DNA of 39,244 nt, taken from the NCBI GenBank assembly GCA_025363585.1, contig JANYDN010000024.1, forward strand, positions 1-39,244. Direction: 5' to 3'. The stretch is from Verrucomicrobiota bacterium. GTDB lineage: Bacteria > Verrucomicrobiota > Verrucomicrobiia > Limisphaerales > UBA9464. The number at the start of each line of letters is the position of its first letter. The stretch's first letter is position 1. The notes under the pieces are model-generated. The model searched no databases, was not told the DNA's origin, and worked only from the letters and a program-made list of their open reading frames with translations. A program made the translations under genes and the position numbers. Shown piece by piece: positions 36,899 to 39,244 of the stretch.

Positions 36899-38155
36899 TC
36901 ACGGAAACAACCCGCGCGCACGCTTCGCGTCCCACACGCGTTTCACGCCGAGCGACATCGCCGCCGTCCGCATCGGGATGTTCTGTTTGCGCGATGCCTG
37001 CAGCGTTTGCTGGAACGCGCTTTCCAGCATCCGGAACAACCGATCGGTCACTTCCGACTCGTTCCAGAAAAAGCTCTGCAGGTCCTGCACCCACTCGAAG
37101 TAACTCACCACCACGCCGCCCGCGTTGCACAGGATGTCCGGGATCACGAACACGTCCGCGCGGTTCTCCAGGATGGTGTCCGCGTCCGGAGTCACCGGGC
37201 CGTTCGCCGCCTCCGCCAGCACGCGGCAGCGTAGCCGGCCCGCGTTCGCTCCCGTGATCTGGCGTTCCATCGCCGCGGGAACGAGGACGTCGCAGGGCAG
37301 TTCCAGCAACGACGCGTTGTCGATCGGATCCGCCAGCGCGAAGCCCGCCACCGTCCGCGTGGCCGCCACGTGCGCGTCCAGCGCCCGGAGGTCGAGTCCC
37401 GACGCGTTGTGCACCCCGCCGTTCACGTCGCTCGCGGCGATGACTTTCACCCCGTGCCGCGCCAGCGAGTAGGCCGCGTGCGAACCCACGTTGCCAAACC
37501 CCTGGATCGCCGCCGTCGCTCCCGATTGCTCGATGCCCAGCGTCTCGAACACGCGGCCGATCAGGTAGCCGACGCCGCGTCCCGTCGCTTCCCTGCGTCC
37601 CAACGAGCCGCCGAGCACCAGCGGTTTCCCCGTCACCACGCCGGGCACGCAATGCCCCACGTGCGTCGAATAGGTGTCCATCATCCACGCCATCGTCTGT
37701 TCGTTGGTCCCGAGATCCGGCGCGGGAATGTCGATTTGCGGCCCGATGAAAGGGATCAGTTCCTGCGTGAACCTCCGCGTCAGGCGCTCGAGCTCGCCCG
37801 TGGACAACGCGCCGGGATCGACCGCGACGCCGCCCTTCGCGCCCCCGTACGGCAGTCCCATCAACGCGCACTTCCAGCTCATCCACATGGCCAGCGCCGC
37901 CACCTCGCCGAGGCGCACGTCGGGATGGTAGCGGATGCCGCCCTTCGTCGGGCCGAGCGACAGGTGATGCTGGACGCGATATCCTGGGAACACCGTGATC
38001 GAGCCATCGTCGCGCCGCAGCGGGACCGCGACGGTCAGCGCGCGTTTCGGGTATTTCAGGCGGTCGCGTTCGTCGACGGGGATCCCGAGGTGGTCGGCGA
38101 CCCGGTCGAATTGCCGGGCCGCCATGTCGAAGGTGGGATGGGAATAGACGTCCAT
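36899..38155 (-). CDS. gdhA: Glu/Leu/Phe/Val dehydrogenase, probably glutamate dehydrogenase
   Basis: 418 residues from the ATG at 38155, preceded by AAGGA at 9 bases. The frame stays open 63 codons further upstream only because it reads through an intergenic repeat. Conserved lysines are at 71 ('GPTKGGIRYHPDV'), 95 ('MSWKCALMG') and 107 ('PYGGAKGG'), with 'PAPDLGTNEQTMAWMMDTY' and the Rossmann motif 'IQGFGNVGSHAAYSLARHG'. It interconverts glutamate and 2-oxoglutarate plus ammonia. The 418-residue length fits the NAD-type GDH of this family. Confidence 0.93.
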   Translation of the reverse strand: MDVYSHPTFDMAARQFDRVADHLGIPVDERDRLKYPKRALTVAVPLRRDDGSITVFPGYRVQHHLSLGPTKGGIRYHPDVRLGEVAALAMWMSWKCALMGLPYGGAKGGVAVDPGALSTGELERLTRRFTQELIPFIGPQIDIPAPDLGTNEQTMAWMMDTYSTHVGHCVPGVVTGKPLVLGGSLGRREATGRGVGYLIGRVFETLGIEQSGATAAIQGFGNVGSHAAYSLARHGVKVIAASDVNGGVHNASGLDLRALDAHVAATRTVAGFALADPIDNASLLELPCDVLVPAAMERQITGANAGRLRCRVLAEAANGPVTPDADTILENRADVFVIPDILCNAGGVVVSYFEWVQDLQSFFWNESEVTDRLFRMLESAFQQTLQASRKQNIPMRTAAMSLGVKRVWDAKRARGLFP

Positions 38156-38184
38156 GTGGTGTCCTTGTCCGCAACGTGGAACGC

Positions 38185-38504
38185 GACCACGGAACGCGCC
38201 AGCGCCTTTCAACCACGGATGACCGGGGAATTTCCACCACGGAGCACACGGAGCACACGGAACGGGGGCAGGCGACGACCCACAAAGATTTTTGACCACG
38301 GAAATCACGGAAATCACGGAAATGGTCCGGAGTTTTTGGTTCAACCGCGTTTAACGCATCAAACGGTTCGTATCGTGCCTGCCTGCCTTCCCGTTCCGTG
38401 ATTTCCGTGATTTCCGTGGTAAAATTATAGGTTCCGCGGCCAGCGCGACTTCCGTGTGCTCCGTGTGCTCCGTGGTTAAATGTTCGTCGCGGGATTCCGT
38501 GGTC
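38185..38504. repeat. Nested inverted repeats of accacggag / accacggaaatcacgg type
   Basis: Two perfect 27-base inverted pairs are nested: outer 38236-38262 with 38450-38476 (repeated unit cacacggag), inner 38295-38321 with 38394-38420 (repeated unit aaatcacgg). A third, 10-base pair (38185-38194 with 38495-38504, gaccacggaa) encloses both. About 72 bases separate the inner arms. Each arm is a short tandem array of a 9-base unit. The region, 397 bases between the divergent starts of gdhA and the dGTPase gene, contains no gene. Translated, the units give runs such as ITEITE or NHGNHG, a well-known artefact in genomes of this group. Confidence 0.9.
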
Positions 38505-38552
38505 CAAACTGAGCGCTTGAGTCCGCTTGGCAGGACGACGGCATAGTCGCGC

Positions 38553-39244
38553 ATGCCGGTGACGCGACTCGAACTGGAGGAACGCGAGACCCGCCTGCTC
38601 GCGCCCCACGCGCAGACCAGCGCGACCACGCGCGGCCGCGTCCATCCCGAGGACCCGCCCACGTGGCGCACGCAGTTCCAGCGCGACCGTGACCGCGTGA
38701 TCCACAGCCGCGCGTTCCGTCGTCTCGAGTACAAGACCCAGGTCTTCCTCAACGGCAGCGGCGACCATCTCCGCACGCGCCTGACCCACACCATGGAAGT
38801 CGCGGCGATCTCGCGGAACATCGCGCGCGCCCTTTGCCTGAACGAGGACCTCGTGGAGACCATCGCGCTGGCGCACGACCTCGGTCACTCGCCCTTCGGG
38901 CACAAGGGCGAGTTCATGCTCGATCGCCTCATGCGCGAGCACGGCGGGTTCGACCACAACCGCCAAAGCCTCCGCGTCGTCGACGTGCTCGAGCGCAAAT
39001 ACCCGCGGTTCGCGGGGCTGAATCTCAGTTGGGAAGTGCGCGAGGGTCTCGCCAAACACGAGGCGGGATTCGCCGTTCCTTCCGGCCGCGCCGACTTCGT
39101 CCGACTCCAACCCTCGATGGAGGCGCAGATCGCCAACCTCGCCGACGAGATCACCTACTACAGCCACGATCTCGACGATGGTCTGGAATCCGGACTCCTC
39201 GACGAGAAGCAATTGATCGCGGACGTCGAGGTCTGGGCCGCGGC
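38553..39244 (+). CDS. dgt: dGTPase-like HD-domain triphosphohydrolase, 5' part
   Basis: At least 230 residues from the ATG at 38553, still open at the window end. Typical blocks: '[20 protein letters not shown]', '[20 protein letters not shown]' (first His of the HD site), '[16 protein letters not shown]' (HD motif), '[11 protein letters not shown]' and '[16 protein letters not shown]' (the last metal Asp region). It hydrolyses dGTP or other dNTPs to the nucleoside and triphosphate in the cytosol, so it affects the dNTP pool. Divergent from gdhA across the nested repeat. Confidence 0.9.

Follow-up and report, generated by a model that had tools for sequence, protein, structure and literature searches.

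Concentric inverted repeats between gdhA and dgt

The window analyzed here is a whole stretch of 39,244 nucleotides from a Verrucomicrobiota bacterium, in which a repeat element sits between the starts of two divergent genes, one encoding a GdhA-type glutamate dehydrogenase (gdhA) and the other a dGTP triphosphohydrolase (dgt) cut by the window end (Table 1). Both gene names given by the first-pass annotation hold as best matches, mostly under the NCBI curated cut-offs, with the dGTPase subfamily model above its cut-off. Between these genes lie three concentric inverted pairs, all perfect, maximal and strictly nested, as that annotation had claimed for two 27-base pairs (27/27 each) with a shorter third pair outside (10/10). 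The arms are built from a 9-base unit consisting of CACGGA and a spacer triplet, GCA outside and AAT inside, while the 10-base outermost pair forms terminal inverted repeats of the kind expected of a MITE; in the clusters of this genome described below, an outer motif was found no more than 70 bp away in 68 of 113 flanks. Among 20 first-order Markov controls of the window, none produced a perfect inverted pair of 20 bases or more. The multi-level hairpin proposed earlier is also predicted by folding of positions 38184-38506 (323 bases), with z scores of −10.1 as RNA and −10.9 as DNA and none of 100 shuffles equally stable.

Table 1. Genes and element parts in the gdhA-dgt region, in window positions
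Feature	Position	Strand	Remark
gdhA, GdhA-type glutamate dehydrogenase	36899..38155	-	start faces element; also given as 36902-38155
outermost left motif GACCACGGAA	38185..38194	+	perfect 10-base partner of 38495-38504
lone forward motif AACCACGGA	38211..38219	+	between third pair and outer arm
outer arm, type B, CACGGA-GCA x3	38236..38262	+	27/27 with 38450-38476
left linker	38263..38294	+	ends in T-rich head (head consensus); TTTTTGAC reaches 38296
inner arm, type A, CACGGA-AAT x3	38295..38321	+	27/27 with 38394-38420
apical loop	38322..38393	.	no significant similarity to innermost loops of other clusters
inner arm, type A, reverse	38394..38420	-	
right linker	38421..38449	-	
outer arm, type B, reverse	38450..38476	-	
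outermost right motif TTCCGTGGTC	38495..38504	-	G008 alignment upstream of dgt resumes at 38506
dgt, dGTP triphosphohydrolase, cut by window end	38553..39244	+	start faces element

The sole other perfect inverted pair in the window (arms of at least 20 bases, within 400 bases) occupies positions 1-22 and about 112-133; this repeat, CGGCGGCCCTGCCGTCACTGCC, stands at the very contig end and outside the CACGGA family. An Rfam scan gave nothing at gathering score, its two MIR1509 matches reaching 21 bits where 87 are required, and no intrinsic terminator was found in 38140-38570.

Ordering rules of the repeat family across the genome

The repeat family had been described as widespread, and a genome-wide search agrees with this. 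In the draft assembly (405 contigs, 89.9% complete), array heads matching ACCACGGANNNCACGGA exactly occur 157 times (72 forward and 85 reverse) and the three-unit form 60 times forward and 70 times reverse, with 0 matches to the control pattern in both cases, so the window repeat is far beyond chance; the exact pattern is found in 39 of 96 genomes searched, its own genome counted. For the anatomy of the family, 51 sequences totaling 356,296 bases were parsed, namely 50 stretches around listed places plus the window, which together represent part of the genome. They yielded at least 220 arms, 217 of which were typed by spacer as A (AAT) or B (NCA) and assigned to at least 64 clusters, 55 of them multi-arm; the three arrays without a type were left out of the cluster, polarity, alternation and arm-identity counts. 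An arm typically carries three units (169/220), preceded by a T-rich head with the consensus TTTTTAC ahead of the first CACGGA and closed by a tail of the form A..GGG. Both strands are present in 49 of the 55 multi-arm clusters, with gaps of 20-215 between plus and minus arms.

The order of arms within clusters follows strict rules. All plus arms precede all minus arms in 46 of the 49 mixed-strand clusters, whereas 2000 strand shuffles reached 11.3 on average and 21 at most. Type differs in 96 of 98 pairs of same-strand neighboring arms and, with copies left out, in 88 of 90 (shuffle mean 45.2, maximum 63), while the arms facing each other at the plus-minus junction are of the same type in 40 cases and of different type in 12. 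In 19 clusters each side has a single A and a single B arm; 17 of these are nested, with the order B>A>A<B< in 10 (including the window) and A>B>B<A< in 7. The same layout recurs at dozens of gene ends with these rules mostly obeyed. Across the genome, arms come paired and nested, so the unpaired arms or random order of units that the first-pass annotation had named as telling against its proposal did not occur. Individual arms are small tandem arrays, as chance or plain tandem slippage would produce, but the empty control patterns and the shuffles, which inverted pairing, order and alternation far exceed, already refute this explanation, and its probability is practically nil.

Single-kind pairs also stand free among the 64 clusters (A>A< in 4 and B>B< in 1), although decayed B arms were found on loop comparison in one of the four A>A< clusters, L108. 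That comparison showed the innermost loops to be mostly unrelated between clusters, indicating that most elements are no visible copies of one another. L083 12472-12716 and L108 nevertheless form a whole-element copy: in inverted orientation, their alignment spans the arms, the linkers and the loop (84 loop bases at 86%). Two near-identical duplicated half elements lie at contig ends, L060 31-385 at the start of C13 and L068 3169-3523 at the end of C78; they may come from one locus that the assembly broke in two or from a tandem duplication. The genome also carries other short-period families: GCAGAT-NNN with an inverted partner, CAAGTTT with period 7 and CACGAA-NNN with period 9, at L076 6586-6655, L065 3986-4224, L107 6-115 and L091 11694-11809.

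The perfection of the arms had been taken to imply recent formation, correction or selection. This stands for type A, whose arms are identical within a locus in 20 of 30 pairs against a shuffle mean of 11.8, and fails for type B (5 of 16 pairs, shuffle mean 5.07), the counts covering those 46 of the 72 nested pairs with three units on both sides. Since identity of B arms is what the genome-wide consensus predicts, the perfect outer arms of the window need no special explanation. Inner versus outer position was considered as the cause of arm identity, but the counts are too small for this (A inner 13/18, A outer 7/12, B inner 1/7 and B outer 4/9). Throughout the genome, A arms often have CACTGA in place of CACGGA as their second or third unit, usually alike in both arms of a locus.

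Clusters are situated in a preferred gene context, the genes outside the window being those of a simple codon-usage caller made for this analysis. Their contexts are 27 codirectional, 23 convergent, 7 divergent (window included) and 7 contig edges, compared with 141 codirectional, 23 convergent and 34 divergent among other gene pairs of the same stretches, so that convergent pairs make up 23 of the 57 clusters flanked by genes and 23 of 198 other gene pairs. The outermost arm has a median distance of 32 bases to the stop codon that it follows (n=71) and of 116 to a start (n=39). Such a location right behind stop codons, together with very stable folds, is what RNA hairpins at mRNA 3' ends (terminator, stabilizer or RNase site) would show. 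However, of 23 codirectional clusters, 10 have the better fold on the sense strand and 13 on the antisense strand, the T run lies 5' of the stem on both strands, which means that the arms are no intrinsic terminator (nor was one found in the window copy), and the window copy sits between two gene starts. An RNA role is not supported by these data, and we regard it as very unlikely.

Empty sites in relatives and polar motifs in the flanks

At the same places in close relatives, whole elements are absent or other short-period repeats are present instead, and empty sites, which the first-pass annotation had proposed to look for, do occur. The 319 bp at L083 2857-3175 correspond to 25 bp in G008, and the 315 bp at L076 13948-14262 to 5 bp in G007, both clean absences; the latter place holds CAGAG-type repeats in G003, and that of L091 13478 holds CAAGTTT-type repeats in G005. 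In G003, gdhA and dgt are likewise divergent, but other short-period arrays stand at this place (GACGAAT, CACGCCT and CACGTTT units), and in G008, the closest relative by dgt (91% at the amino acid level), the two genes are 1,651 bases apart, with homology to the window ending at 38202 and resuming at 38506. G008 lacks exact ACCACGGANNNCACGGA in an assembly that is 86% complete; short repeats are often missing from draft assemblies. No target duplication was recognized, because the flanks of the relatives' empty sites have diverged too far. A separate repeat of about 60-70 bases (GCGGTGGCAAGGC...GCGACACCGCTTTC) is present in high copy in G008, at dozens of places and often paired about 180 bp apart, and one copy was seen in the window's genome at L083 14112-14180.

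Beyond the arms, lone motifs extend into the flanks and into coding sequence with a uniform direction. In the first 120 bp outward from the outermost arm, 113 flanks contain 121 copies of CCAC[GT]GA with its head outward and 0 in the opposite orientation, and 32 of the 121 fall in called coding sequence, a label that is firm only where homology supports it (L083 and L076). Beyond 240 bp from the arms, the counts in these flanks are 5 head-outward and 5 opposite; because the motif is thus at background there, a reading of the DNA-uptake-sequence type was rejected. The opposite orientation is found 0 times within 240 bp of the arms, where background predicts a few, and may be avoided.

Comparison with relatives at five elements, picked by where relatives could be aligned, shows how such motifs differ. 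In the left flank of L083, GACCACGGAG replaces the GACCCCGGAG of G008, turning a Pro of G008 and G007 into His; in the left flank of L076, TTE is encoded where G008 and G007 have AAP; and in the window, CGACCACGGAACG stands against CGCCGGCGCGGCG in G008. The DNA around the left outermost motif of the window can be aligned to the region upstream of gdhA in G008, which does not have the motif. At L091 13478, the aligned coding end has no motif in the shared part. In homologous coding DNA, the lone GACCACGGA motifs were made by substitution and not by insertion. The polar flank motifs are the least explained part of the system and the strongest argument for something beyond plain insertion.

One possible source of these patterns is construction in place, in which templated copying (through fold-back synthesis, a switch of template from arm to arm, or slippage) would write arms into the intergenic DNA already present, with single motifs spilling outward. 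The strictly head-outward motifs, 32 of the 121 in called coding sequence, the flank codons shifted towards the motif, the unrelated loops and the private variants common to both arms of a locus (A arms here, and a subset of elements in other genomes described below) all favor such a process. However, lone motifs, mostly preceded by GA and followed by random sequence, share with the arms GACCACGGA only, without the T-rich head and without AAT or GCA tails, unlike a copied arm, which weakens arm copying as their origin. B arms are likewise unmatched within loci, and block-wise absence in relatives and a whole-element copy also speak against it. We consider construction in place a rather doubtful explanation.

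Alternatively, the arrays might be binding sites of a DNA-binding protein under selection, with polarity and alternation reflecting protein assembly. A short conserved motif amid random DNA, a direction that flips at the center, conserved T-rich heads and motif changes even in coding flanks would fit this view. Against it, there is no candidate protein, the family switches or the site vanishes between congeners at the same place, and B-arm variants are unmatched; we judge it unlikely.

In other genomes of the order, neighboring heads within 300 bp among the listed matches are arranged plus-minus in 32 cases, minus-plus in 4, plus-plus in 4 and minus-minus in 3. The paired three-unit pattern was further found in 21 contigs, including, by their titles, Verrucomicrobiota, Planctomycetota and beta- and gammaproteobacteria. 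These contain 22 elements, and both spacer triplets are identical between the arms in 6 of the 22 (shuffle mean 0.65), which come partly from the same lineages, a point that lessens their weight for construction in place. Further inverted pairs of other units occur in the flanks of 2 of the 22, above the 99% level of mismatched flanks: in L052 (Wenzhouxiangella), a CACGGA-type pair is nested within a ACGCAAAGACGCTAAGCAGCAAAGA pair, and in L051, a planctomycete, there are two further layers of inverted pairs of other units. Both arms of the L052 pair have one and the same irregular order of units and so probably go back to a single origin. The polar flank motif is weak in this set, with 6 head-outward versus 0 within 120 bases in 44 flanks.

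Precedents and possible origin of the elements

Among the papers listed by sequence and peptide searches of the literature, none appeared to concern the CACGGA repeat itself, and we found no account in the literature of how such short-period inverted repeats of distant bacteria arise. The nearest precedent found is the paired tandem-repeat sites of Geobacter metallireducens reported in 2009 (PMC2700814), and, as far as the excerpted description goes, the window family extends that little-studied kind by layering it through nesting. The predicted global regulator sites of classes 1-3 described there are intergenic and multicopy, hold 3-5 tandem 7-9-mers each and are mostly paired on opposite strands at variable distance; they were read by their authors, as a hypothesis, as IHF/HU regulator sites, and at the proBA place another conserved sequence stands in their stead in G. 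sulfurreducens (PMC2700814). The present family resembles them in having about three tandem 8-9-mers per site and opposite-strand pairs at variable distance. Class 2 consists of three repeats of TCTCCGTS[Y], which is the reverse complement of CACGGAGA if S is G, so that the core is shared with the window family; CACGGA reverse-complements to TCCGTG and matches the core CTCCGTS over six bases, not the full consensus. The excerpted account contains no concentric pairs, two-type alternation, polar motifs in coding flanks or post-stop position.

Three other repeat systems were compared in the parts of their descriptions that bear on the family. REP/BIME elements, and REPINs with RAYT, are small, intergenic, palindromic and dispersed, form inverted dimers and are reported in Verrucomicrobia (Opitutus terrae), with REPs being 20-40 bp stem-loops tagged GTAG or CGTC (PMC3733652). 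The window family has the same small, intergenic, palindromic and dispersed character and inverted pairs; unlike a REP, its arm is a tandem array that needs a partner, and the head and tail consensus (TTTTTAC ... A-GGG) has neither GTAG nor CGTC. Unlike REPs with RAYT, moreover, the arrays flank none of the five Y1_Tnp (Y1-transposase/RAYT-type) genes found within about 1.5 kb on each side, the transposase search having covered Y1_Tnp only, and a RAYT link was dropped. The TAACTGA heptamers of Beggiatoaceae are likewise short-period direct intergenic repeats patchy over distant taxa, but they stand mostly upstream of start codons in one orientation and, as described, are almost never inverted (PMC4679880). 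Geobacter bemidjiensis has multicopy intergenic sequences that belong to palindrome families and to families of 6-42 nt direct repeats (PMC2996986), and is alike in that several repeat kinds share one intergenic region, the excerpted account giving neither sequences nor nesting.

We favor, tentatively and at a probability of roughly 0.4, a hairpin-forming, non-coding, dispersed intergenic element, broadly REP/BIME- or MITE-like, that arrives as a block, with one kind nesting in the other. Elements would arrive as discrete blocks, mostly right behind stop codons, possibly moved by a trans-acting enzyme. One kind would then insert into the loop of the other kind and not of its own, leading to the concentric B>A>A<B< or A>B>B<A< order with older layers outside and younger ones inside. 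The alternation could arise if elements were kept from entering their own kind, or if direct repeats were lost by deletion. The suggestion of the first-pass annotation that one element lies inside another is plausible, since A-only and B-only pairs occur alone and two genomes of other phyla nest this pair inside pairs of other units. Block-wise absence, the whole-element copy and the free-standing single-kind pairs favor discrete mobile hairpin units, while unrelated loops, polar flank motifs and locus-private arm variants favor templated construction in place. Of this model, the data show that arms pair, that they are polar and alternate in type, that relatives lack whole blocks and that at least one whole element was copied. 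Counting against arrival as blocks are the unrelated loops, Y1_Tnp genes without arrays, lone motifs made by substitution, a target duplication that was not recognized and, subject to its incomplete assembly, the lack of exact ACCACGGANNNCACGGA in G008; single polar motifs in resident flanks and the differing of nearly all loops are left unexplained by it.

A bolder and quite improbable reading is that a polar process working from the center outward converts flanks, coding sequence included, towards GACCACGGA and extends such seeds to 9-base arrays. The partner arm would be copied via a hairpin, for example by fold-back synthesis, or, alternatively, telomerase-like 9-base additions to both 3' ends of a break might give exactly such geometry. 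Several unit families, each with its own sequence, would compete for the same intergenic sites and nest within one another across phyla.

Whatever the mode of origin, polarity, two-type alternation, post-stop position and polar motifs in coding flanks that are missing in relatives represent sharp, testable rules that constrain any model, be it a transposon, a protein site or templated copying. Combined with species in which the sites are empty or differently filled, these rules make the origin of the repeats directly testable by strain comparison.
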